Source of the DNA: a virus
Virus record (IMG/VR): IMGVR_UViG_3300029267_001855
Coordinates: 1 to 36,310 of that record
DNA: 36,310 nucleotides
Reading direction: 5' to 3' (one strand)
Positions 1-25,612 of the stretch are shown in pieces (the first letter of the stretch is position 1; the number at the start of each line of letters is the position of its first letter). A model generated the notes under the pieces. That model was not told where the DNA came from. It did no database searches and saw nothing but the letters and a program-made list of their open reading frames with translations. A program made the translations under genes and the position numbers.

Positions 1-65
1 TCTGCTGCCACCGTGGACTTGCCGCTGCCTGGTTGTCCGATTAGATAGATGAGTTCCTTCTTCAT
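1..65 (-). CDS. P-loop kinase, N-terminal fragment (probable 5-hmdU DNA kinase)
   Basis: Only the first 21 codons lie in the window; the gene runs off the left edge. It opens with MKKELIYLIG followed by the Walker A loop GQPGSGKST, so it is a small P-loop NTPase/kinase. A GGAGGAG ribosome site precedes the ATG, which overlaps the stop of the upstream transferase gene as ATGA, so the two are translationally coupled. In phages that hypermodify thymine, a P-loop kinase phosphorylates 5-hydroxymethyl-dU in DNA and the neighbouring amino acid:DNA transferase uses the product. The assignment to that kinase is inferred from the neighbour; only the Walker A motif is seen. Confidence 0.7.
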   Translation of the reverse strand, partial: MKKELIYLIGQPGSGKSTVAA

Positions 66-1045
66 TGCTCCTCCGATAGCCACCTCGGCTCGTATGTTTC
101 TCGTCGATAATCCCAAAGAACGGACCAATCAACTCCAGTTTGCACCTTCTGTTCTAGCTTCCGTATCTCGTTGGCCTGCCGATCCAGGTAGTAACCAACA
201 TACCGCTTTCCAATCCTGTACTTCTTGTACGCGCAGAGGGTAGTTTCCAGGCTCCACACTGACTCACTCGAGTCCCTCGCCTTATACTCCTTTACAAGCC
301 TGTCGAACTCGCTCTGGAGGTACCTAACCCACTTTGCCGGCAGCTTCTTCTTTTTGCCGTGAACACTCAGCTCGGGGTAGCCTATGGCGTAAGCCAAACC
401 GTTCCGGCTCGACTCCGAAGATCCTTCCTTCATGTCCATCGTTCTCGGCACCATCGGGAATCCGGTCGTCACGTTCACCGCTTCAAGGTACAGGAATAGT
501 CCGTACCTACCCATCTGATAGAGCTCCCCCATTTCCTCGTACAGACCATCGTAAGCAATGTGGGGATTCTTGGTGCGGTACCGGTCAAACGTTGATTCCT
601 GGTAAGACCCAGGCTCGCCGTGTTTCCCCATGTGAACGGTATAGGATCGTAGCATATCACACCACTGGTTTCTGCTACGAACCCAGCGTCTATCTGTCTG
701 AAAATAAAGAGCTTCACGGTTCGTAGCCCACCAACGCTCAAGTCTGCCGAAGTCGACGTTCTCAAAATCGGGAAACTCGTTGTAGATGTAGTACACTGTG
801 GGCCCGCAGTAGCAAGTAGCGAAGAGGTAGGCGAGCCAATATCGTTGCTCGGTGTTCAGCTCGAACCGATTGCAAACGTAGCGAAGCATGTCGTTCGCGG
901 GGTCGCAGTCCCCCACCTGGCGAGAGATCTCGTGGTAGGTTTGGTAGTCGACAGGGTTCTGAATGCCCGCGGTCATGGAACATGCCCGAGCTACGGTCTC
1001 GGGAGAAAACTGTTTGCCGTCTAACTGATACGGTGTGACATGCAC
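62..1045 (-). CDS. Putative amino acid:DNA transferase (alpha-glutamyl/putrescinyl thymine pyrophosphorylase family)
   Basis: 327 residues from a GTG start (GGAGGAGG ribosome site upstream); the gene begins inside the last 25 bp of the amidotransferase gene. The segment around residues 64-96 (RYWLAYLFATCYCGPTVYYI, then NEFPDFE) and the aromatic-rich WWATNRE/WVRSRNQW region resemble the phage family first predicted as alpha-glutamyl/putrescinyl thymine pyrophosphorylases, helix-hairpin-helix glycosylase relatives later shown to attach amino acids or amines to phosphorylated 5-hmdU in DNA. Recognition is by pattern, not by search. The coupled P-loop kinase at 1-65 is the partner expected for this family and is the main support. 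The substrate cannot be read from sequence. Confidence 0.62.
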   Translation of the reverse strand: MHVTPYQLDGKQFSPETVARACSMTAGIQNPVDYQTYHEISRQVGDCDPANDMLRYVCNRFELNTEQRYWLAYLFATCYCGPTVYYIYNEFPDFENVDFGRLERWWATNREALYFQTDRRWVRSRNQWCDMLRSYTVHMGKHGEPGSYQESTFDRYRTKNPHIAYDGLYEEMGELYQMGRYGLFLYLEAVNVTTGFPMVPRTMDMKEGSSESSRNGLAYAIGYPELSVHGKKKKLPAKWVRYLQSEFDRLVKEYKARDSSESVWSLETTLCAYKKYRIGKRYVGYYLDRQANEIRKLEQKVQTGVDWSVLWDYRRETYEPRWLSEEQ

Positions 1046-1677
1046 GGCTCAACCTCCTCCACTTCTCCGTCGAATTCAGCTCTCCGGAAGATGTCTTCTG
1101 TTGAGGCTATGAATATGGCACGCAGAGAGTAACCAAACCACAATGGGCGATTACGGTTTCTAATTGCATGCATTTGTCCCTTGTGCAGGAACGCGCCAGC
1201 GAAACTGAAGGAGCCATCGTCTACAAAGCCATGCCAATCTTCTCCATCAAGTACTTTGCGACAGAAGATCTCCCCGTCATTGTCTGTGGTGTACTTCTTT
1301 CCATAAGCCTGTTCGTACTCAGTACGGAGGCCCATGTGTATGCAACCATTGAACACGAGGGAGATCTCGTGTTTGTCGGGTCCAACGACATGAAGAGGTT
1401 GGTTGTTTCTGTGATCCTCCCAGTCGCCGCTGGTGGAATACCGCGTGTGCCCAATAATTTTCAGAGGTTTGCCCAGGTGGCTTTTGGCAAAAGGCATCAG
1501 TGAATGCTTTAGCTCATCTGTGTCAAAGAACTTCCGCGTGTTGATAACCTTACCATCTAAGAAGCTGTACCCGCAAGAATGGAGACCACGGATTCGGCTC
1601 TGCTCGAACAAGTTGCACAGCATCTCTATCCCACCATGCAAAACCTTCTCTGTCGCATATCCTATAACTCCGCACAT
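1021..1677 (-). CDS. Class II glutamine amidotransferase, stand-alone glutaminase domain
   Basis: 218 residues starting MCGVIGYA, so Met removal exposes the N-terminal nucleophile Cys2. Other class II (Ntn-hydrolase) landmarks are present: HTRYST at 77-82 (glutamine-binding Arg79), Asn110-Gly111 in LVFNGCIHM (oxyanion hole) and TDNDGE around 131-136. Such domains hydrolyse glutamine and pass ammonia to an acceptor enzyme. Here no synthetase domain follows, so the acceptor must be another protein. The next gene, a putative amino acid:DNA transferase, overlaps its end by 25 bp, which suggests ammonia delivery or amide formation during DNA-base modification (inference). Separated by 2 bp from the upstream GNAT gene; its ribosome site (GGGG) is weak. 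Confidence 0.85.
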   Translation of the reverse strand: MCGVIGYATEKVLHGGIEMLCNLFEQSRIRGLHSCGYSFLDGKVINTRKFFDTDELKHSLMPFAKSHLGKPLKIIGHTRYSTSGDWEDHRNNQPLHVVGPDKHEISLVFNGCIHMGLRTEYEQAYGKKYTTDNDGEIFCRKVLDGEDWHGFVDDGSFSFAGAFLHKGQMHAIRNRNRPLWFGYSLRAIFIASTEDIFRRAEFDGEVEEVEPCMSHRIS

Positions 1678-1679
1678 AG

Positions 1680-2097
1680 TTACCCCATGTAAAGGTTGAC
1701 GACCTTCCCCTTTTTGGTTTTCTTCTGTCCAACCCTCTTCATCCCGAGCCCCAGATAAAAGGCGTTGGACTCCTCATTCTCCGCGTCAGTCTTCAGTTCA
1801 ATTGGCCGAAGGGCAGGCCCTGGTCCGCGCATGTAGCCGATTAGAGCTCGTCCCATCCCCTTGCGTTTGGAGTCTTCGGCCACGGCTATTTCGTACAGCG
1901 TTACGATTCCATTCCGCTTTGCCCTGAAGTGGGCGAACGCGCTCTCGCCGATGGCAACCCAATGATCATTCTTCGCATGGCAACGAGCCCAGCGAACCAA
2001 GGGAAGTTTGCCGCCAAGGATTTTTTTGTTTAGCTCGAGCAAATCCCCAACCCACTCGTGGTCTTCTTTCGTGATGGGGTGCGTGACGTAAGCCATC
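1680..2097 (-). CDS. GNAT-family N-acetyltransferase
   Basis: 139 residues from the ATG at 2097, chosen because GGAG lies just upstream and the start falls 7 bp after the ParB-like stop. A longer open frame extends upstream but overlaps that gene. The acetyl-CoA pyrophosphate loop is visible at 78-83 (RKGMGR) after the beta-4 strand YEIAVAED, and the C-terminal half (ENEESNAFYLGLGMKRVG) is the usual GNAT strand-helix ending. An acetyltransferase acts on the base in at least one known thymidine-hypermodification pathway (acetylated 5-aminomethyl-dU), so a role in tailoring DNA bases fits the neighbours. Acetylation of a protein or small molecule is equally possible from the sequence alone. Confidence 0.8.
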
Positions 2098-2104
2098 GTT
2101 ACTC

Positions 2105-2779
2105 CTACTCTTCTTCGGTTTCCCCTTCTTCCTCCAGATCCGCCAGGGAGAACACCACTTGGTTGCTTGTGGCCCCGAGCCCTATCAGTTCGAGCCACTG
2201 GGCCCGTTCCTCCGGAGTCTCGTACACCAGGATGAGCTTCCCCATCGTGTCGTCCGGTCCCGTCTCCGGTGGGTCTGGAAGGTTGTCCGGGAGATGGCTA
2301 TCGTCAGGAGCCCAAGCCATCAGCTTTTCAAGATCGTCGCCGGCAAAGCCTGTCAATTCGAGATCTATCTCTCCGGTGTCAATCTCCTGTAGGATCTCGC
2401 GCACCTTGGGCATGGACAGTTCACTCAGCTCTGCAATCCGGTTGTCAGCGACCAGGTCCGCCCACTCCTCTGCTTCACTGGCGTAGTGCTGATAATCTAC
2501 TGGCACATTGACTCCCAGGGCTACTGCCGCCATGTACCTGCCGTGACCGCGCACGATGAATCCACTACGCCTGGATACCGTGATTGGTGCCCGCCACCCG
2601 TTTGTTTTGATGATCTTACCTAACAGCTCCACCTGGGAAGCAGGATGGTCATTAGGGTTTCTCGGGTTAGGGATCAAGGCCTCGGCCTCAATCTCTTCAT
2701 CAAAAGCACAGTAGACTTTGATTTCACTTATGACAGCGCGAGGAGCTCCCTCCTCCGGCTTTTCGTTGTTTGCGTTCAC
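2105..2779 (-). CDS. ParB/sulfiredoxin-fold domain protein
   Basis: 224 residues from a GTG start with AAGGAG 8 bp upstream. The N-terminal half is a ParB-type domain: NPRNPNDH at 38-45, IKTNGWRAPITV, and the nucleotide-binding motif GHGR at 78-81, followed by ADNRIAELSE and TGFAGDDLEKLM. No helix-turn-helix or methyltransferase domain is fused, so it is not a plasmid-partition ParB. The C-terminal third (LILVYETPEERAQWLELIG) resembles tails of phage ParB-like proteins that sit next to DNA-modification genes. ParB-fold enzymes include CTPases and kinases; here a role in the modification cluster is inferred from gene order. Confidence 0.75.
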   Translation of the reverse strand: MNANNEKPEEGAPRAVISEIKVYCAFDEEIEAEALIPNPRNPNDHPASQVELLGKIIKTNGWRAPITVSRRSGFIVRGHGRYMAAVALGVNVPVDYQHYASEAEEWADLVADNRIAELSELSMPKVREILQEIDTGEIDLELTGFAGDDLEKLMAWAPDDSHLPDNLPDPPETGPDDTMGKLILVYETPEERAQWLELIGLGATSNQVVFSLADLEEEGETEEE

Positions 2780-3294: not shown

Positions 3295-3341
3295 CCGCCT
3301 ATTCCTCCTGCTGGCAATGCCAGCGGTTGTTCCCCTTCCGG

Positions 3342-3415
3342 TGGACGGGGCACGATTTGAACGTGCGACCTTCGCATTATCAGTGCGATGCTCTACCAGG
3401 CTGAGCTACCCGTCC
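3342..3415 (-). tRNA. tRNA-Ile(GAT)
   Basis: 74-nt cloverleaf: acceptor GGACGGG/CCCGTCC, D stem GCTC/GAGC, anticodon stem TCGCA/TGCGA around loop CTGATAA (anticodon GAU), T arm GCACG-TTCAAAT-CGTGC, discriminator A. The CCA end is not encoded. All four stems pair perfectly, so it is probably functional. Confidence 0.93.
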
Positions 3416-3651
3416 GGCTGCCGGTCTTTCCCGGCTGTCAACATCCACATTCGAAGGCCGGATGTTACTCCTGGTAATGCTGTGTCGGATTTAAAGTCCG
3501 GAGCATTGGTCCCCAGCCGTGAGCCCGTCAGCGCTTCTGGGGTGGGAGATTTAACCAAAACTCCTAAATTACCCACGCTGATTTCGAGCTGAATGTCATT
3601 GCGCACCACCTGGGTGACACAACCAACAAACACGGCCAGTACCGTTATCAT
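3406..3651 (-). CDS. Possible small lipoprotein or exported peptide, 81 residues
   Basis: The N-terminus (MITVLAVFVGC) resembles a short signal peptide with a lipobox-like Cys11; the rest is small polar and Pro/Gly/Thr-rich. A near-perfect anti-16S complement (AAGGAGGTGATC, 3672-3683) lies upstream but is ideally spaced for an ATG at 3668 that gives only a four-residue peptide (MRGF). That peptide stops 2 nt before this ATG, so the ORF would be read by termination-reinitiation. Its 3' end overlaps tRNA-Ile by 10 bp. Rz1-type spanins are similarly small lipoproteins, but no other lysis gene is nearby. Could be spurious. Confidence 0.4.
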   Translation of the reverse strand: MITVLAVFVGCVTQVVRNDIQLEISVGNLGVLVKSPTPEALTGSRLGTNAPDFKSDTALPGVTSGLRMWMLTAGKDRQPDG

Positions 3652-3653
3652 AA

Positions 3654-3683
3654 TTAAAAACCACGCATGAAGATCACCTCCTT
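3654..3683 (-). promoter_or_regulatory. Strong ribosome site with four-codon leader ORF
   Basis: AAGGAGGTGATC at 3672-3683 matches the 16S rRNA tail over 12 nt and sits 3 nt before ATG CGT GGT TTT TAA (3654-3668); the AGGAGG core is about 8 nt from the ATG. The stop is followed after 2 nt by the ATG of the 81-residue ORF. The layout looks like a leader peptide controlling a downstream frame, or a ribosome site orphaned by deletion. Confidence 0.45.
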
Positions 3684-3689
3684 TCCTTG

Positions 3690-3761
3690 AGCCTCCGAAG
3701 GGAATCGACCCCCAACATCCTGATTACAAGTCAGGTGCTCTGCCTGTTGAGCTACAAAGGC
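3690..3761 (-). tRNA. tRNA-Thr(TGT)
   Basis: 72-nt cloverleaf: acceptor GCCTTTG/CGGAGGC with two G-U pairs, D stem GCTC/GAGC, anticodon stem CCTGA/TCAGG with loop CTTGTAA (anticodon UGU, reads ACA). The T arm is irregular: the loop reads GTCGATT rather than TTCGATT, and the outermost stem pair is a T-T mismatch. Discriminator T; no encoded CCA. Probably a real but diverged phage tRNA. Confidence 0.85.
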
Positions 3762-3767
3762 CATCTC

Positions 3768-4127
3768 TTACCCATTATTCTGTATCATCGGCAGGTGCAC
3801 ATTCAGACACCTCTGCAGACTAGTCAGATCGCTCTTTATCTTTTCTATATTTTCAATCGCCGCACTGGCCGCGTCCTCCTCTGTTGCAAAGAACCTACTC
3901 GATGACTGCTTTGTGATAGAATCAGAATGATTATAAATAACCGTGACAACAGCGTCAGATTCCCTATTGACTATCCTACAGTCAATTACCATCGCACCAA
4001 CCACCTTCAACCGAACAGCTTCACCGTAATCGGACTCCCAGTAACAGGGTTCAACCTGGGTCAGCCAGGGTTCAACTGTGTAAACACGGTCACCTCGTTT
4101 CAGTTTCATTGCCTCTTCTGTTAACAT
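3768..4127 (-). CDS. Hypothetical protein, 119 residues, between tRNA genes
   Basis: AGGAGG lies 5 bp before the ATG. The N-terminal half (KLKRGDRVYTVEPWLTQVEPC, then EAVRLKVVGAMVIDCRIVN) reads as a small SH3/KOW-like beta barrel of the sort seen in many short phage proteins, and the C-terminal 40 residues form a probable amphipathic helix (EEDAASAAIENIEKIKSDL). It lies between tRNA-Asp and tRNA-Thr. No function is assignable. Confidence 0.72.
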   Translation of the reverse strand: MLTEEAMKLKRGDRVYTVEPWLTQVEPCYWESDYGEAVRLKVVGAMVIDCRIVNRESDAVVTVIYNHSDSITKQSSSRFFATEEDAASAAIENIEKIKSDLTSLQRCLNVHLPMIQNNG

Positions 4128-4144
4128 CTCTTCCTCCTAGTTCG

Positions 4145-4217
4145 CGGGACATAACGGACTCGAACCGTCACCATCTGGCTCGACAGGCCAGTGCCCTACC
4201 AATTAGACCAATGTCCC
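4145..4217 (-). tRNA. tRNA-Asp(GTC)
   Basis: 73-nt cloverleaf: acceptor GGGACAT/ATGTCCC, anticodon stem CTGGC/GCCAG with loop CTGTCGA (anticodon GUC), T arm GACGG-TTCGAGT-CCGTT, and discriminator G73, which is the Asp identity base. The D stem uses G-U pairs. CCA is not encoded. Confidence 0.93.
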
Positions 4218-4392
4218 AATGCTCCAAGAACCTCGGATTCCGCCGTGTCCCTCACGAGCGGAGCAGCCCGCACCATTTGTCTCAACAGAGTTACCAGCCG
4301 CTCTATGCGACCGGACAATATCACTGGGAATCCAACCCAGCTCCCTTCGCTACCTGCCCTCGGTGAACGAGCCGAGATTGAACCGGCCTTTG
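4218..4392 (-). other. tRNA-poor spacer with two tRNA-like T arms (remnants)
   Basis: 175 bp between tRNA-Met and tRNA-Asp without a convincing gene. Two T-arm-like hairpins occur: 4371-4387 (GCCGG-TTCAATC-TCGGC) and 4324-4340 (CTGGG-TTGGATT-CCCAG). Neither is followed by a 3' acceptor strand with a matching 5' partner, and no anticodon arm with a proper 7-nt loop lies at the right distance. They look like decayed tRNA genes. An in-frame stretch here reads as an amphipathic peptide (ERLVTLLRQMVRAAPLVRD), but it has no ribosome site and continues through the tRNAs, so I do not call it a gene. Confidence 0.4.
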
Positions 4393-4465
4393 TTGCGGGG
4401 GGCCGATTCGAACGGCCGACCTCTTGGTTATGAGCCAAGCAAGCTACCATCTGCTCTACCCCGCA
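4393..4465 (-). tRNA. tRNA-Met(CAT), initiator-like
   Basis: 73-nt cloverleaf: acceptor TGCGGGG/CCCCGCA, anticodon stem CTTGG/CCAAG with loop CTCATAA, T arm GGCCG-TTCGAAT-CGGCC, discriminator A. The body (GCGGGGTAGAGCAG, TGGTAGCT, GGCTCATAACC) closely follows bacterial initiator tRNA. Two initiator hallmarks are altered: position 1 is U, so it can pair with A72 instead of leaving C1 x A72 unpaired, and only two of the three G-C pairs below the anticodon loop are kept. It may therefore be an initiator-derived elongator or a modified initiator. Confidence 0.92.
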
Positions 4466-9919: not shown

Positions 9920-10192
9920 CTATGCATTCACTTGGGGTGGGTCTTTATGGGTTTCTTCAATATCCAAAATCATCCGCCCTTCGTTGAGCAAAGATATTGT
10001 TTCCTCGGTTTTAATTATTCCAATTACTTCATCCTCACTCTTTCCGGATTTTTTCGCATACCAAATTCTAACACATGCCACCGCAACTTCCGCCTGTTCG
10101 GAACCAGCAACAAGTTGTTCTAGGCGCGGAATTGGATTGTCTTCGGCGAACCTTACATTCACACGCCATCCCCCCGAGTTTTGCCTTTCCAT
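9920..10192 (-). CDS. Hypothetical acidic protein, 90 residues
   Basis: AAGGAAG lies 6 bp before the ATG. N-terminal strand-like region (WRVNVRFAED), a long helix (LEQLVAGSEQAEVAVACVRI) and an acidic C-terminus (LLNEGRMILDIEETHKD). No motif recognised; located between the cysteine-protease-like gene and a 133-residue unknown. Confidence 0.68.
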   Translation of the reverse strand: MERQNSGGWRVNVRFAEDNPIPRLEQLVAGSEQAEVAVACVRIWYAKKSGKSEDEVIGIIKTEETISLLNEGRMILDIEETHKDPPQVNA

Positions 10193-10207
10193 TATATTAC
10201 TTCCTTT

Positions 10208-10609
10208 CTAATCAAACTCCATCACGCGACCCGACTGTTTGGAGGTCGTCGCGAAGAAGGCTTCTCGCTCCCCGAGTATCTTCCAGGACCAGTAACACAC
10301 CGGATATTCCATGTCCTCAAATGGGCCTCCCTCAGATTCGAACAGAGCGTTCTCTCCGTAGGTCCCAACAAAGGTTATCGGCTGCCCTCGATACTCAATG
10401 AATCCCGCACTGGTCTTCCGGCCATTGCCGAACTCGGTGTACACCTTCCCAGGGATGAACTCGGTGCTCTTGATCTTCAGTGGCCGCCGCCGGATGTACT
10501 TGGCGAACTCCGTGGCCTTGAACGCCAGGATCTGCCAGTAGCCACCCGACGCGTCCGGCGCGATGATGTCGTATCCGTTTCCCCCTGGGTAGATTGTTAC
10601 TTTTCCCAT
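10208..10609 (-). CDS. Hypothetical beta-rich protein, 133 residues
   Basis: Starts 3 bp after the LexA-like gene with a weak GGGA site. Sequence is rich in Gly, Tyr and alternating strand patterns (KVTIYPGGNGYDIIAPD, ITFVGTYGENALFESEGG), suggesting a beta sandwich or barrel. No family recognised. Confidence 0.68.
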   Translation of the reverse strand: MGKVTIYPGGNGYDIIAPDASGGYWQILAFKATEFAKYIRRRPLKIKSTEFIPGKVYTEFGNGRKTSAGFIEYRGQPITFVGTYGENALFESEGGPFEDMEYPVCYWSWKILGEREAFFATTSKQSGRVMEFD

Positions 10610-10612
10610 AGT

Positions 10613-10933
10613 CTAATCCCAAAACATGATGTAACCACCCCGTCGCCCGCCATATACTATTTTCCTTTTGAATCCGGTTGTTCGGAGTGTACGCGCACAG
10701 TCGGCCTCCCACACTACCAGCCCTCTCTGCTTGAGCTTTTGGAGCATATGCCTCACGCCTTCCTTGCTGAGGTCACCCAGCTCTTTTGCAAGTTCTCGAA
10801 GGGTGGGAGCTCGCAGGTTCTTCCTGTGGAAAGAGTTGATTGCCTCAAGGTACTCATACTGCCTCTGGGTAATCATCTGGTGGCCCCACGGAATGTTGCG
10901 TCCGTAGGTGTAAATAACCTTTCCGTCCGTCAT
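10613..10933 (-). CDS. LexA-type winged-helix DNA-binding protein without protease domain
   Basis: 106 residues from the ATG at 10933 (AAAGG upstream, overlapping the previous stop region by 4 bp). Residues 20-85 match the LexA N-terminal domain: MITQRQYEYLEAINSFHRKN, RAPTLRELAKELGDLSKEGV, HMLQKLKQRGLVVWEADCAR. LexA continues into a Ser-Lys autoprotease domain; here the chain ends in a basic aromatic tail (GRRGGYIMFWD). It is likely a phage transcription regulator that may read LexA-like half-sites; which promoter it controls is not visible. Confidence 0.78.
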   Translation of the reverse strand: MTDGKVIYTYGRNIPWGHQMITQRQYEYLEAINSFHRKNLRAPTLRELAKELGDLSKEGVRHMLQKLKQRGLVVWEADCARTLRTTGFKRKIVYGGRRGGYIMFWD

Positions 10934-11268
10934 TCGGCTGCCTTTCCCCTGAAATCCCGATAAATCCATATGATGATTCTGCGCCCAGTTTGCGGACTGG
11001 GCCTTCTTCTGCCGCTGTCCTTGAGCAGTCCGTTGCGGCATAGTGTGTTCCGCCTCGGGACTTGCGTCTGTGGCGTCAGTCCGAGCTCGACCTGTATCTC
11101 GGCGTCTGTTGCTCCGTACTCACCTTTGCCGCGTATGAACTCCAACACCTTGCGCTCCAGAGTGTGGGCGAAAGGCATTGCTTGAACGGCTGCGCTGCGA
11201 CTGGTGTCGGGCCACTGGCTGGGGGCACCATCGTAGTTGAGCAAATCTAATTGTTCGCTTTTACTCAT
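10930..11268 (-). CDS. Phage winged-helix protein with clamp-binding N-terminus, 112 residues
   Basis: GAGGAG upstream; the ATG overlaps the previous stop as ATGA. The family pattern is clear: an N-terminal peptide ending near PDTSRSAAV, a helix (LERKVLEFIRGKGEYGATDA), a recognition region (EIQVELGLTPQTQVPRRNTL) and GLLKDSGRRR. Many phages carry such a protein, thought to bind DNA. The N-terminus contains EQLDLL, a good match to the beta-clamp motif QLxLF/QLDLL, pointing to replication forks. Confidence 0.72.
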   Translation of the reverse strand: MSKSEQLDLLNYDGAPSQWPDTSRSAAVQAMPFAHTLERKVLEFIRGKGEYGATDAEIQVELGLTPQTQVPRRNTLCRNGLLKDSGRRRPSPQTGRRIIIWIYRDFRGKAAE

Positions 11269-12083: not shown

Positions 12084-13082
12084 TTACTGCCAATCCTCCC
12101 AACTCAGAATACAAACCGAGCGGAAGTAATACCAATTGGTCCCAGTGGTACTGACTCCGTACACTTGACCGAGTTCAAAATTAAGCGCATGCGTTTGGTC
12201 CACATCCGAATTCGGCTGCTTGGTCCAGAAAACCTTCCCCTCGCAATCGCCACCCCACACTGACTCGTCCCAGTAGCATCCCTGTGGGCCAGGTGAGTCA
12301 TTCATCATGCCGATCATCTCACCCCAATAGTACGGGAGCCTCCACCCTGAGTATCCGCCAAGCGAGAGCTCCTCGCACCTGGTTACTGAATACGGATAGA
12401 TGTCCGCTGGGTAAGTCGGGCCATTTAGTTCCCAAAGATTTCCCGATAGTGGATCACACCATATCTCAGGAAGTTCAGGAGCCCCCGAGCAGGGGTCTGT
12501 GTCCGTGTCGGTGTCGGTATCCGTGTCGGTGTCGGTGTCCGAATCAGTGTCGGCGTCCGCGTCTGTATCAGTATCTATGTCGGAATCTGCATCCGTATCC
12601 GAATCAGTGTCGGTGTCTGTATCCGTATCGGTGTCGGCATCAGTGTCCGTGTCAGTATCGGTGTCGCTGCCCGGCACCTCATCAGTAAGGCCATCGCAAT
12701 CCTCATCTATCCCGTTTGGCGGGTCATAGATTTCATCTTCGTTCGGATTGGCATCGGGGTTGTCATCATCGCAATCCTCTGGCGGGGACCAGCCATCGCC
12801 GTCCTCATCTACTTCCGTGTCGGTATCAGTGTCAGTATCAGCATCAGTGTCGCTGTCGCTATCAGAATCAGTGTCGGTATCTCCATCCGAATCGGTATCA
12901 GTGTCAGTGTCGGTATCGGTGCCTGTATCTGAATCAGTGGAGGGATCATAATCTGTATCAGAATCGGAATCAGAGCCAGTATCCACATTGGTGTCCGTAA
13001 CAGAATCCATCTCATATGAAAATCCCCTTGGGTCGGCAGAGCACGCGACCATAAAAGCTGCAATTAAAATTAGTCTACTCAT
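12084..13082 (-). CDS. Surface lipoprotein: Thr/Ser-Asp repeats, MopE-type Ca-binding motif, Lcl/DUF1566-like domain
   Basis: 332 residues with GGGAGG upstream. Residues 1-14 are a lipoprotein signal (hydrophobic core, lipobox MVAC, Cys14). Residues 35-90 and 139-196 are acidic Thr-Asp/Ser-Asp repeats. Between them, 91-135 ([20 protein letters not shown], then [12 protein letters not shown]) is the putative metal-binding motif abundant in Myxococcota and related secreted proteins. Residues 198-332 hold [22 protein letters not shown] and YYFRSVCIL, typical of Lcl/DUF1566 C-type-lectin-like domains that bind surfaces or glycans. It is unlike any other gene here and is probably a host-derived moron that remodels the infected cell surface, for example for superinfection exclusion (inference). 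Confidence 0.85.
12495..12995 (-). repeat. Low-complexity GAC-rich coding repeats (two blocks)
   Basis: Two blocks of imperfect 6-bp units (ACNGAC/TCNGAC on the minus strand), about 12495-12670 and 12810-12995, encode the Thr-Asp/Ser-Asp stretches of the lipoprotein. They flank the calcium-binding motif. Such tracts change length readily by slippage or recombination. Confidence 0.85.
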
Positions 13083-17413: not shown

Positions 17414-17706
17414 TTGTGGTTCACCTCCTCTGTTTCGAATTCACCCTCGTGAATGATCCCACTTTCATCAATGAGCAGCTCGTCCACCAAAACCTGGCGG
17501 AAGTCGCTGTTCCATTCAGAGTTTTCAATCAACTCTGCGAGCCGGTCCAGCAATTGAAGATTTCTGCGCAGCGCCTCCTGGAATGCGGCCAACTCATCGA
17601 AGGTATGAACATCTCCGCCGCCACCAAAAACATTGAAGTGCCTCCTGCCTTCCTTGTACTCGGAAATCACGAAAGCTACTGCTCTAGCTTTTATTTTTTT
17701 GCCCAT
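17404..17706 (-). CDS. Hypothetical protein, 100 residues
   Basis: AAGGAG 7 bp before ATG 17706, which lies inside the last 23 bp of the methyltransferase gene. N-terminal strand (KARAVAFVISEYKEGRRHFN, VFGGGGDVHTFDELA), a helix (LRRNLQLLDRLAELIENSEW) and an acidic tail (ESGIIHEGEFETEEVNHK). No family recognised. A small gap follows, so this may be the last gene of its unit. Confidence 0.7.
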   Translation of the reverse strand: MGKKIKARAVAFVISEYKEGRRHFNVFGGGGDVHTFDELAAFQEALRRNLQLLDRLAELIENSEWNSDFRQVLVDELLIDESGIIHEGEFETEEVNHKTK

Positions 17707-18370
17707 CAGTTTTCTCCTTCGCTACTCGCACTCTCTTCTTCTTTTTGTTCCCCATGATATATCCGCTGTTGAGCCAATGGAGGTGCGTTTGCCTGAATCC
17801 CATAGAGTGGAGCACGTCGTCAGTTCCGTGACCGTTCCAAAATGTGAAGGCGTACTCCTGGGCAATATTGGTTTGCCCGTCTCCGGTAAATGAAGGACGA
17901 GCCCTCAAGATCCAGACCTGTGCCGGTGGCCGCTCCATGAATAGCTTCGAGCGCTCTTGTGTGCCAAGGAAGGCCACCTTCGTCAGGAATACCGCCACGC
18001 CGTGAGGGGCCAACATGTCTAGAGATCTTCTGACGACCTGCTCACCAATAATGAACGGTGGATTGGTCGCTATCACGTCAAAGAGATCCTGACGTTTTAC
18101 TTCCTTGATGTCATGGTTAGGCATGCAGTAGCCTGGTCCCTCGTAATCTCGCCAGACCGGAGGGTCCACATCCCGAACATCAAAACCGAAGGGGTTCATC
18201 CCGAACTCCGCGGCTGCCCGAGCAAACGGGGCATCGTCCCCACAGCACGGCTCAAGCATGTTGCCCTTGTCTGGAGCCTGGGGTAGGAGCGCCATTTGCA
18301 TCGCGTGTTTTACTGCCCACCGAGCGAGCCCCAGGTGAGTCCCGTAATTGTCATGTTCCTTCCTAGCCAT
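17684..18370 (-). CDS. Adenine-specific DNA methyltransferase
   Basis: 228 residues; start overlaps the upstream stop as TAATG. SAM-binding motif I is MLEPCCGDDAPFARAAA (around 38-54) with the acidic strand-2 end GFDVRDVD at 62-69; motif IV is NPPF at 103-106 in DVIATNPPFIIGE, the adenine-N6 catalytic tetrapeptide; HGVAVFLTKVAFL is the following strand. No target-recognition domain is obvious, so specificity is unknown. Likely protects phage DNA from restriction. The Lys-rich C-terminus (NKKKKRVRVAKEK) may bind DNA. Adjacent to a second methyltransferase-like gene. Confidence 0.82.
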   Translation of the reverse strand: MARKEHDNYGTHLGLARWAVKHAMQMALLPQAPDKGNMLEPCCGDDAPFARAAAEFGMNPFGFDVRDVDPPVWRDYEGPGYCMPNHDIKEVKRQDLFDVIATNPPFIIGEQVVRRSLDMLAPHGVAVFLTKVAFLGTQERSKLFMERPPAQVWILRARPSFTGDGQTNIAQEYAFTFWNGHGTDDVLHSMGFRQTHLHWLNSGYIMGNKKKKRVRVAKEKTDGQKNKS

Positions 18371-19323
18371 TATTTGTTTTTCTCCTTGTTTAGTACGCTG
18401 AACAGATCTCCCTGCCCATGGCGGTTGAACGTGTATTCCTCCCCCTTGGATATTGCGGGTGGATGCCCCTCCAAAATCCTGGCCTCATTCATGTTTTGTA
18501 CCAGCAAATCCCCCTGGCTTATGGAAGGACGATCTAGAATGCTACGGCCAATTGGTGTCATGTAGACTGCCCACGGAGCGAAGAGTGCCATATTAATGCA
18601 ACACGCATTCACCATCATTCTATCAACGTCCATACCTGAAAGATTCACCGAATAATTGCTGGCTTCCAGGAGCATCCTGCCAGTCCCAACACACGGATCA
18701 CATACGGACATCATTCTCGCATCCCGACCATCAGGCAGTACTTTTGATTCCGGATCAACGGTCATCCTGACCATCATATTGCAAATGCTGTGGGGTGTCG
18801 GGTAGAAGGCATGCGGGTTCCAACCAGCACCATGGCGCTCGGAAAGTATCCCCCCGAAAACGTCACTGTCGGCTGCCTGAAGGCGACCCAACTCAAAGTT
18901 GACATATAGGTATTCGTGCCACTTCTGTTCATAACGAGGTTCAGGAAATTCCTCAGTGCAGCCAACACCCAGGCTCCAGGAGAGCCACTCGATTAAATAG
19001 CTCAGGGCATCCCATCCGCCACCCATCCTGCTCACCAAATCCTCGAGGTGTTTTCTGGCACCAGATGCCGTCAAGGGTGGTCCCGTTTTCTTCCCTCTTG
19101 TCTTGGGTATAACAGGCAAGCCCTCCCTTAATCGATTGCTCGCGCCATGCTGGAACTCAATGTGTGGTATTGGCGTGTCGGGCAACTCGCCGGCACCAAT
19201 TACATCCATCCACCATTCGAGTCTTCCAGTGCCGAAAATCTTATCCCCTCCCAGAAGATATTCAATGGCCCAACCTTTCTCTTTCATCGCTTCAAACTTG
19301 GGCTCTGGCTGCTGATTATCCAT
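18370..19323 (-). CDS. N6-DNA-methylase-like protein lacking a clear motif IV
   Basis: 317 residues. FYPTPHSICNMMVRM (173-187) and SVCDPCVGTGRMLLEASNYS (206-225), then SGMDVDRMMVNACCINMAL, match the SAM-binding half of type I (HsdM-like) adenine methylases. I see no NPPY/NPPF; the position after strand 4 reads RSILDRPSISQGDLLV. Related phage proteins of this form also seem to lack it. It may be a catalytically altered subunit that pairs with the overlapping gene at 17684-18370, which has NPPF, or it may bind SAM for another purpose. Confidence 0.75.
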   Translation of the reverse strand: MDNQQPEPKFEAMKEKGWAIEYLLGGDKIFGTGRLEWWMDVIGAGELPDTPIPHIEFQHGASNRLREGLPVIPKTRGKKTGPPLTASGARKHLEDLVSRMGGGWDALSYLIEWLSWSLGVGCTEEFPEPRYEQKWHEYLYVNFELGRLQAADSDVFGGILSERHGAGWNPHAFYPTPHSICNMMVRMTVDPESKVLPDGRDARMMSVCDPCVGTGRMLLEASNYSVNLSGMDVDRMMVNACCINMALFAPWAVYMTPIGRSILDRPSISQGDLLVQNMNEARILEGHPPAISKGEEYTFNRHGQGDLFSVLNKEKNK

Positions 19324-23991: not shown

Positions 23992-24344
23992 CAGATCTCC
24001 TCCTCTTCATCTTCAAGAGTTCCCCCACCTGTCCCCTTCGGGTTGGCACCAAACAGCTTTTCCATCAGGCTCCGGGGTGCCTCACCCGTCAGTGCCATGC
24101 CGCGCACATACATGTCCAGCTTGGCCTGGTATCCGTTGAACACCATGGCAATACTACCCATCGTAACGACGACACCAGTCATGAATGCGGCCAGTGGCCA
24201 GCCGAGATCCTTCTGGGTAATCAGCGCCGTGATTGCCATGCCGCACAAGAGAAATTCCATCAGCAAAAAGGCTACAAACTTCTTGCTACTAAAGTGACCC
24301 TTTTCAAAGCCTTTTGCCATTTTAATCCGCTGTTCGTTTGTCAT
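23991..24344 (-). CDS. Holin-like membrane protein, 117 residues
   Basis: AAAGGAAA 7 bp before ATG 24344. Two membrane helices (FVAFLLMEFLLCGMAITALI; PLAAFMTGVVVTMGSIAMVF) with charged ends (N-terminus KMAKGFEKGHFSSKK, C-terminus acidic DEEEEI), the layout of class II/III holins and similar phage membrane proteins. It is the first of three adjacent membrane genes. Holin identity is inferred. Confidence 0.58.
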   Translation of the reverse strand: MTNEQRIKMAKGFEKGHFSSKKFVAFLLMEFLLCGMAITALITQKDLGWPLAAFMTGVVVTMGSIAMVFNGYQAKLDMYVRGMALTGEAPRSLMEKLFGANPKGTGGGTLEDEEEEI

Positions 24345-25086
24345 CTTGTTTTCCTTTCTCGATCTCCATGCAACCACGGAGATCCATCTTGAGGTAGTAT
24401 TCCTTCCCGAGTTTATCGAGAAGATCTACCGCGTCGTGTCCGAATTTGTACCAGTCAATCTCCTTTGCTCGAGGATGATAGTTCAACTTTCCAACCTTGA
24501 AGAGATCAACAAAGGGGGCAGACATTTTTATTAGCTCGAGCGTCTGCTCAGGAAAAATGACCGGCTCCATGCTGGCCCAGGTGGTGATGCCAAACTTTTC
24601 CTTGGCAATTTTCAAGGACTCTATTCTCTCCCACGCTGGAGCTGACGCTGGTTCCCAAACTGTGAGGTCAACGTAGTTAAGCAAGGTCAGCGTCACCGCC
24701 AGACAGTCGCCTTCACTTAGAAGATCTAGATCGCGGACGGCCCGAAGGCCCCCCTTGGTCAGGATCTCAACATTAAGACCTCCATCCTTGATGATCTGTA
24801 TTGCCTCCCTGGTGATACCTAGATCGACATCCGCGTGCTGGTATGGATCAGTGGTAAAACTCATGAGCACGCGTCGATTGTCGCCTTTCAGCTTCGCCAC
24901 ATCTTTTTTCAGTTGTTCGATTGCCCCCTCTCTGACCGTCACATCTTCATGAAATGTAGCCCGGTGGCAATACAACACGTTTGGCGCGTAACAATAGGTG
25001 CAGCCATGAGAACACCCTTTGTAAATATTTGCCGCTAACGGGGCGTACTCAAGCGCCTTCCCCTTTGGCTCGTAAATGATCTTCAT
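24322..25086 (-). CDS. Radical SAM enzyme, SplB/photolyase-like family
   Basis: 254 residues from ATG 25086 (AAGGGG upstream); a TTG two codons earlier is possible. The cluster motif is YKGCSHGCTYCYAP with Cys25, Cys29 and Cys32 (CxxxCxxC). The partial TIM barrel shows MSFTTDPYQHADVDLGITRE, VEILTKGGLRAVRDLDLL and TTWASMEPVIFPEQTLELI. The closest general type is the SplB-like group (spore photoproduct lyase and relatives), which use a 5'-deoxyadenosyl radical on DNA or unknown substrates. It sits between the HNH-like and holin-like genes. DNA repair or modification is plausible; radical SAM enzymes take part in some thymidine hypermodifications. Confidence 0.85.
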   Translation of the reverse strand: MKIIYEPKGKALEYAPLAANIYKGCSHGCTYCYAPNVLYCHRATFHEDVTVREGAIEQLKKDVAKLKGDNRRVLMSFTTDPYQHADVDLGITREAIQIIKDGGLNVEILTKGGLRAVRDLDLLSEGDCLAVTLTLLNYVDLTVWEPASAPAWERIESLKIAKEKFGITTWASMEPVIFPEQTLELIKMSAPFVDLFKVGKLNYHPRAKEIDWYKFGHDAVDLLDKLGKEYYLKMDLRGCMEIEKGKQDDKRTAD

Positions 25087-25612
25087 CTTCAACCCCTTCC
25101 AAGTAGGCTTCCACTATTTCTGCAGCGCGGCGATCTGCCCACGCGAGAAGCCAGTCTCTTTGCTCATCCGGCCCAAGTCCTGGGCCCTCTGTGGCGAGCC
25201 ACAGGTTTAACTTTTCCAAGGCGCAGCCATTGATCGGCTCCACATGCTGTCCACATTCGGAACACCGTGATGCCGGCAAGCTCAAGAGCTTGGCCTTCTC
25301 GAGCTTCTCAATGTATGCGCGGTTTATTTTCAGCGCGTCATTCTGGTAGGACTCCAGCACATTCAGGTACTCGGGTGTCCCCTTTTTAATGAGCGCCAAC
25401 CGTTTAAAATCATACCGTTGGTGACAGCGTTGGCAAGTTCTTGCGACTTCATTATCCGAAGGCTTCAAACCTTTTCCCCCGTCATCACCGAAGTGGTGAA
25501 GCTGGGTCCATTGCCTTTCCCTGCAAACACAGCAAGGAGCTGGTGACATCTCCTCGTGGGCGAACTTCAACAGCTCTTTGGAGCGAAACGGTTTTGACTT
25601 TGGAAACATCAT
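25049..25612 (-). CDS. HNH/DUF968-like zinc nuclease-type protein
   Basis: 187 residues; ATGATG at the start overlaps the upstream stop. CCVCRERQWTQLHHFGDDGG (27-46), KPSDNEVARTCQRCHQRYD (50-68) give Cys-x2-Cys, His-His, and Cys-x2-Cys-His as in HNH-fold DUF968-type phage recombination proteins. A helical segment and a second CSECGQ site follow, then an acidic C-terminus. Likely a DNA nuclease or zinc DNA-binding protein of the recombination set. It overlaps the radical SAM gene by 38 bp. Confidence 0.65.
   Translation of the reverse strand: MMFPKSKPFRSKELLKFAHEEMSPAPCCVCRERQWTQLHHFGDDGGKGLKPSDNEVARTCQRCHQRYDFKRLALIKKGTPEYLNVLESYQNDALKINRAYIEKLEKAKLLSLPASRCSECGQHVEPINGCALEKLNLWLATEGPGLGPDEQRDWLLAWADRRAAEIVEAYLEGVEDEDHLRAKGEGA

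Follow-up and report, generated by a model that had tools for sequence, protein, structure and literature searches.

The 36,310-nucleotide stretch analysed here (the window; positions 1 to 36,310 of IMG/VR record IMGVR_UViG_3300029267_001855, an incomplete 36-kb phage record) carries at its left end, on the minus strand, a 2.8-kb cassette in which a free-standing class II glutamine amidotransferase (GAT) adjoins an amino acid:DNA transferase family protein (ADDT). ParB-like, GNAT, GAT and ADDT genes and the 5' end of a Ploopntkinase3 kinase gene are co-directional and close-packed, which confirms the tight five-gene cluster that an earlier sequence-only reading had placed at 1–2779. The ParB-like and GNAT genes lie 8 nt apart and the GNAT and GAT genes 2 nt apart, GAT and ADDT overlap by 25 nt, and ADDT and kinase overlap in an ATGA. 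From first to last gene, the features are:

2105..2779, minus strand: ParB-like protein, 224 aa, first cassette gene (ParB-like PHROGs, 7.9e-28)
1680..2096, minus strand: GNAT acetyltransferase, 138 aa, best start ATG at 2096 (PF13673, 4.5e-5; PF00583, 1.4e-4)
1021..1677, minus strand: free-standing class II (N-terminal nucleophile, Ntn) glutamine amidotransferase (GAT), 218 aa, predicted catalytic Cys2 (PF13522, 4.3e-8)
62..1045, minus strand: amino acid:DNA transferase family protein (ADDT), 327 aa, GTG start (PF18724, 8.6e-22)
1..65, minus strand: P-loop nucleotide kinase (Ploopntkinase3), 5' end, cut at the contig end (PF18751, 1.9e-5 on 21 residues)

The product of 62–1045, which the sequence-only reading had named a putative transferase, proved to be a member of that family, scoring 78 bits with PF18724, whose cut-off is 26. 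Its AlphaFold2 (AF2) model (predicted local distance difference test, pLDDT, 93) matches 8z2n in Foldseek (1.1e-3) and in VIA-align (Z 18.5 over 256 residues). This structure, the 5-phosphomethyl-deoxyuridine (5-PmdU) glycinyltransferase gp46 of phage PaMx11, itself belongs to PF18724 and was the sole clear match class in the PDB; the next fold match was a DNA glycosylase at Z 7.6. A phmmer search of the ADDT against the PDB gave no match, so that the fold search was needed.

The 21 kinase residues encoded at the contig end (MKKELIYLIGQPGSGKSTVAA) align to positions 1–20 of PF18751. A separate record, IMGVR_UViG_3300017989_002574 (L139), opens with an exact 117-base copy of window 1–117 in reverse complement; because the next relative, L004, has only 78% identity to the window over 54 bases of the same stretch, L139 very probably stems from this phage or from one almost identical to it, to judge by this overlap of two records. 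Leftward extension, proposed earlier to complete the kinase, was achieved through L139 and gave a full-length Ploopntkinase3 protein of 177 aa (PF18751, 9.5e-28), which we propose to be a 5-hydroxymethyl-deoxyuridine (5-hmdU) DNA kinase. Beyond it L139 encodes an 89-aa open reading frame (ORF), a 199-aa ORF (weakly MmcB-like), a 416-aa radical S-adenosylmethionine (SAM) protein (rSAM; 1455–2705) and a gene called large-terminase-like from its sequence appearance and position rather than by family search. With the Pfam matches and the ADDT fold match, the earlier proposal of a thymidine-hypermodification-type island with an ADDT and kinase core and a GNAT is supported. The cassette is a real one of this type, unusual in that the GAT is a near-obligate partner of the ADDT.

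The ParB-like protein is a probable DNA-binding or targeting partner: the gene heads the cassette in most relatives. The protein has no Pfam match, and its N-terminal part also matches a methyltransferase PHROG (5.9e-34). Pfam support for the GNAT is marginal, with Acetyltransf_10 just above the cut-off; for the GAT it is good, PF13522 too scoring above its cut-off.

The GAT model (AF2, pLDDT 95.8) has PurF as its best PDB fold (1ao0, E 3e-12), with GlmS next; PurF was also among its best profile matches in the PDB, where phmmer found no match and a profile search was needed. Cys2, Arg79, Asn110, Gly111 and Asp134 are invariant across ~138 family sequences, and the predicted enzyme keeps the glutamine-handling residues of PurF/GlmS-type glutaminases. 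Its 218-aa chain is a GATase domain only, and the acceptor (synthase) domain is absent. PurF, the best fold match, joins its glutaminase to a phosphoribosyltransferase acceptor domain in one chain, whereas in the window cassette the acceptor role would fall to a helical DNA enzyme on a chain of its own. The missing fused domain lowers the case for a classical GlmS/PurF-type enzyme, but not that for a role like that of a glutaminase subunit.

The gene pair recurs widely. A GAT homologue was present in all 57 loci that a scan of IMG/VR with the ADDT alone returned (57/57), and a second, profile-based ADDT scan returned 71 new loci, 70 of them with a GAT; the exception (L113) starts inside the ADDT at a contig end. 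A third scan, from the ADDTs of rSAM loci, recovered mainly GAT-less ADDTs. After duplicate removal, 101 distinct GAT-linked ADDTs remained, from uncultured phages. GAT and ADDT share a strand in all 129 pairs examined and, among 100 distinct pairs measured, overlap or touch in 55 and are separated by one gene-sized gap in 41, a gap that was shown to hold the GNAT in many loci. Because the pair recurs in ~100 distinct relatives, the clustering is far beyond chance. The free-standing Ntn glutaminase that had been singled out as an extra part is thus real, and it was not found in the compared M6 and PaMx11 stretches, but it is no local addition: it is the near-obligate companion of an ADDT clade.

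In a tree of ADDTs, 48 of 49 GAT-linked tips fall into one clade, with 2 label changes compared with 20.5 in shuffles; the outlier, L058, is placed beside a long-branch GAT-less Vibrio sequence (L221). For most members of the GAT clade, TET/JBP is the presumed source of the hydroxyl group (near 85 of the 101 distinct GAT-linked ADDTs); an rSAM protein takes this part at several distinct positions in the tree (L004 together with the window, L152/L222, L029/L132, L041/L050 and L056), and a thymidylate synthase (TS) homologue does so in L039 and L043. Because the GAT stays while this source alternates, it follows the ADDT and no other gene. A typical GAT cassette is made up of ParB, a hydroxyl source, GAT, ADDT and kinase, and in many cases a GNAT; L152 (MetK-ParB-GAT-ADDT-kinase-GNAT-rSAM-TerS-TerL) keeps the gene layout seen in GAT-less relatives (L143, for one), but has a GAT and a long ADDT where these have the short ADDT.

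A GAT that made a free small-molecule nucleophile other than bare ammonia, or that served nucleotide metabolism, could lie beside the ADDT for operon convenience only, and its free-standing, unfused form would agree with this. We consider such an arrangement very unlikely: the pairing outlasts exchanges of hydroxyl source, acyltransferase and kinase subfamily, and no synthase partner besides the ADDT recurs with the GAT. It is highly likely that GAT and ADDT act together, perhaps as a complex. Residues N89-E90-F91-P92-D93, R101, W105, Y135 and Q149, among others, are invariant in GAT-linked ADDTs and variable in GAT-less ones (column comparison, tree set), as would fit a partner surface or channel, while E267, C271, K275, R281, Y286 and R289 are common to nearly all ADDTs, GAT-linked or not. 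The literal string YNEFPDF was tried as a GAT marker and discarded as too strict, being varied in many GAT-linked ADDTs; across the tree set the signature does hold when read column by column.

The GAT-ADDT pair also lies on contigs (L222, L223 and L224) of Prevotella and Phocaeicola metagenome-assembled genomes, which suggests Bacteroidales as the hosts of some clade members.

In the mechanism that we propose, thymine in phage DNA would gain a 5-hydroxymethyl group after replication, perhaps through the rSAM protein in this lineage and through TET/JBP or a TS homologue in relatives. The kinase would phosphorylate this group to give 5-phosphomethyl-dU; the GAT would hydrolyse glutamine and pass the ammonia to the ADDT, which would displace the phosphate in a PurF-like way, giving 5-aminomethyl-dU in one step. 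The GNAT would then acylate the amine (an acetyl cap, as in PaMx11), an Amidoligase_2-like enzyme taking its place in some GNAT-less relatives, and the ParB-like protein would guide the enzymes to DNA. PurF is the chemical precedent for the ADDT step, because there glutamine-derived ammonia displaces the phosphate-type leaving group of phosphoribosyl pyrophosphate. We put at roughly 0.5 the probability of an ammonia nucleophile and an aminomethyl-dU product.

The closest characterised comparison is the 5-aminomethyl-dU (5-NmdU) pathway of Pseudomonas phage PaMx11, whose genes run ADDT (gp46), flavin adenine dinucleotide (FAD) enzyme (gp47) and GNAT (gp48 acetyltransferase), with a TS homologue (gp51). 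Its aminomethyl group reportedly comes from a glycine adduct cut by the FAD enzyme (Lee et al. and Wen et al.). The two systems share an ADDT-family transferase of the same fold and a GNAT, and may share a similar end product (acetylated aminomethyl-dU), but the window cassette has the GAT where PaMx11 has the FAD enzyme, and a TS was not found in the window. Genes 1–4 of the cultured Microbacterium phage Kozie (TET/JBP-ADDT-DAO-Ploopntkinase3) likewise form a compact cassette beside the terminase with the same ADDT and kinase families; there a DAO enzyme and TET/JBP are present and a GAT is not. A DAO-family FAD enzyme (PF01266 profile) was found in none of 29 GAT records (the incomplete window record and 28 others), with both controls positive. 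Since PaMx11 and Kozie have a DAO enzyme and these 29 records do not, GAT and FAD enzyme look like alternative routes to the aminomethyl group. M6-type rSAM and pyridoxal phosphate (PLP) proteins and the PaMx11-type FAD enzyme were not found by sequence in GAT loci. Close homologues of the M6 PLP-type gp52 and rSAM gp53 lie adjacent in another uncultured phage (L193, 3520–6112).

A different division of labour would have the ADDT attach an amino acid (for example, glutamine, asparagine, glycine or serine), like its counterparts in characterised phages, and the GAT act afterwards, as an Ntn amide hydrolase, to trim what has been attached (Gln to Glu, for example, or acyl removal), with no ammonia donated. 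Stand-alone GAT-II-type amide hydrolases are known, and the ADDT keeps its family core, as such a scheme would have it. Pseudomonas phages LUZ24 and tf have a homologous GAT-II domain, which differs in lying within a longer protein among ATP-grasp, amidoligase and AIG2-like proteins, in a stretch with no ADDT match; this company, too, favours trimming. A trimmer, however, need not track the transferase so closely in gene order, overlap and phylogeny, and the GAT retains PurF/GlmS-type glutamine-handling residues, which makes this scheme rather unlikely in our view.

The sequence-only reading had offered two roles for the glutaminase, supplying ammonia or amidating an attached amino acid. In the second, ammonia from the GAT would go to the carboxylate of a base-linked amino acid, yielding an amino-acid amide; class II GATs serve asparagine-synthetase-type reactions. 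An Amidoligase_2-like gene, which this reading could draw on, occurs in six distinct GAT-ADDT loci, all without a GNAT (L004, at 10082–11002, L006, L043, L050, L058 and L126); the label is Pfam-confirmed in L050 only, and the L004 protein has no Pfam match. A GNAT is near 54 of the 101 distinct GAT-linked ADDTs and never together with this gene (54 versus 6, both together 0; Fisher p 0.008, kinship not corrected). This split counts in favour of the mechanism proposed above, and the gene suggests amino-acylation instead of acetylation in the six loci. Glutamine-derived ammonia has also been proposed, with no experimental demonstration, as the nucleophile for phage carboxymethylcytosine, through 5-carboxymethylcytosine ligases with a glutamine amidase domain (2025; PMC12783734). 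That proposal gives ammonia in phage base hypermodification a general precedent, and it differs from the window cassette in base (cytosine), handle (a carboxyl group) and enzyme (an AMP-forming ligase of which the amidase is a domain). Amidation would require an ATP-dependent ligase; an amidoligase match is missing for 95 of the 101 GAT-linked ADDTs, within each locus stretch examined, and neither the window nor L139 showed one. Since no such ligase is seen in most cassettes, ammonia supply is favoured as the better fit, and we regard the amide product as distinctly improbable.

Several points weigh against ammonia as the nucleophile delivered by the GAT. The reaction might need no glutaminase, if free ammonia is enough. 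The ADDT retains the family core residues, so glycine or another amino acid is still a possible substrate, and no GAT-ADDT fusion was found among the loci examined. GNAT is also near 31 of 54 distinct GAT-less ADDTs and is therefore, alone, no pointer to a primary amine. Neither TS nor TET was found in the window, which leaves this phage with only a candidate source of 5-hydroxymethyl-dU.

This hydroxyl source, perhaps the rSAM protein, is the weakest link of the explanation. The thymidylate synthase homologue that the sequence-only reading had proposed to look for was not found in the incomplete 36-kb window or in the 99.6-kb record of its nearest relative, L004; TET/JBP was found in neither, and none was seen in L139. 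Where most relatives have TET/JBP, the window lineage has a predicted rSAM protein. ParB-TET/JBP modules such as that of Rhodococcus phage Tonitrus (genes 1–5), a thymidine hypermodification module, similarly set ParB, oxidation enzyme, transferase and 5-hydroxymethyluracil DNA kinase side by side (PMC11955845); they differ in that no GAT is reported there and in having TET/JBP where the window lineage has the rSAM protein.

The rSAM family has motifs like those of spore photoproduct lyase (SPL) and a weak PF04055 match, and occurs in ParB-led cassettes (L139, L142, L143, L152, L158, L217 and L140) that carry ADDT, kinase and GNAT or TAGT and other glycosyltransferases, often near a phage SAM synthetase. 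Genes that accompany it also include those for TET-associated-type glycosyltransferases (PF20691), another glycosyltransferase and SAM synthetases. TET and the rSAM family occurred together in none of the sampled ADDT loci. No phage among the rSAM records searched whole (20–140 kb) had a TS homologue, with the controls PaMx11, M6, L039 and L043 positive; the sole exception among the records, G042, is an entire bacterial genome, which has a ThyA of its own. TET was found in 0 of 24 whole rSAM records, in a search run without its own positive control (the same model scored in another search) and in which fragments can hide genes. Because kinases and glycosyltransferases need a hydroxylated base and the SAM synthetase would feed the rSAM enzyme, we infer by exclusion that the rSAM protein may make the hydroxyl handle; we advance this tentatively, as somewhat less than an even bet, and name the family a candidate oxygen-independent base-functionalising enzyme.

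Among 80 loci found with the rSAM protein as query, TET was present in three (L169, L177 and L178), which thus have both putative base oxidisers in one phage. At about 8–13 kb, L169 encodes ParB, TET, a second ParB, rSAM, a TAGT-like glycosyltransferase and a second radical SAM-like protein. A phage SAM synthetase gene lies upstream of a ParB-ADDT-kinase-GNAT-rSAM cassette in L143 (840–1877; PF00438, 1.7e-20) and L151 (4195–5232). The window encodes another radical SAM protein (24325–25092, minus strand; PF04055, 8.7e-12; motif CSHGCTYC), of a family different from the cassette rSAM.

A bolder and, to us, doubtful extension is that GAT and ADDT form a glutamine-dependent amidotransferase acting on DNA (a 'DNA PurF') and that, in the window lineage, an SPL-like rSAM enzyme, replacing TET/JBP, functionalises the thymine methyl group free of oxygen, so that a 5-(acetyl)aminomethyl-dU pathway could run anaerobically. 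To our knowledge, the glutamine amidotransferase reaction is known for small molecules and tRNA-linked amino acids, and not for DNA. If true, DNA itself would be the acceptor of a classical glutamine amidotransferase, the gene pair in ~100 distinct uncultured phages would be accounted for, and enzymes could make amine-bearing DNA in one step, which would be of use in labelling; the rSAM variant would suggest how phages might form 5-hydroxymethyl-type bases without oxygen. Full-text searches of open-licence papers returned no report of a GAT with an ADDT (Iyer 2013 or Lee 2021/22 may already list GAT-containing neighbourhoods), and the pairing is part of no characterised pathway that could be checked.

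Elsewhere in the window, four tRNA genes (Ile, Thr, Asp and Met; 3340–4465, minus strand) adjoin the cassette. Two neighbouring proteins at 17687–19323 (minus strand) have methyltransferase-like motifs (LEPCCGD and DPCVGTG), and a DNA methyltransferase PHROG is matched by one of the proteins of the window. At 12087–13082 (minus strand), a protein with long Asp/Thr/Ser-Asp repeats begins with an N-terminal signal-like stretch.

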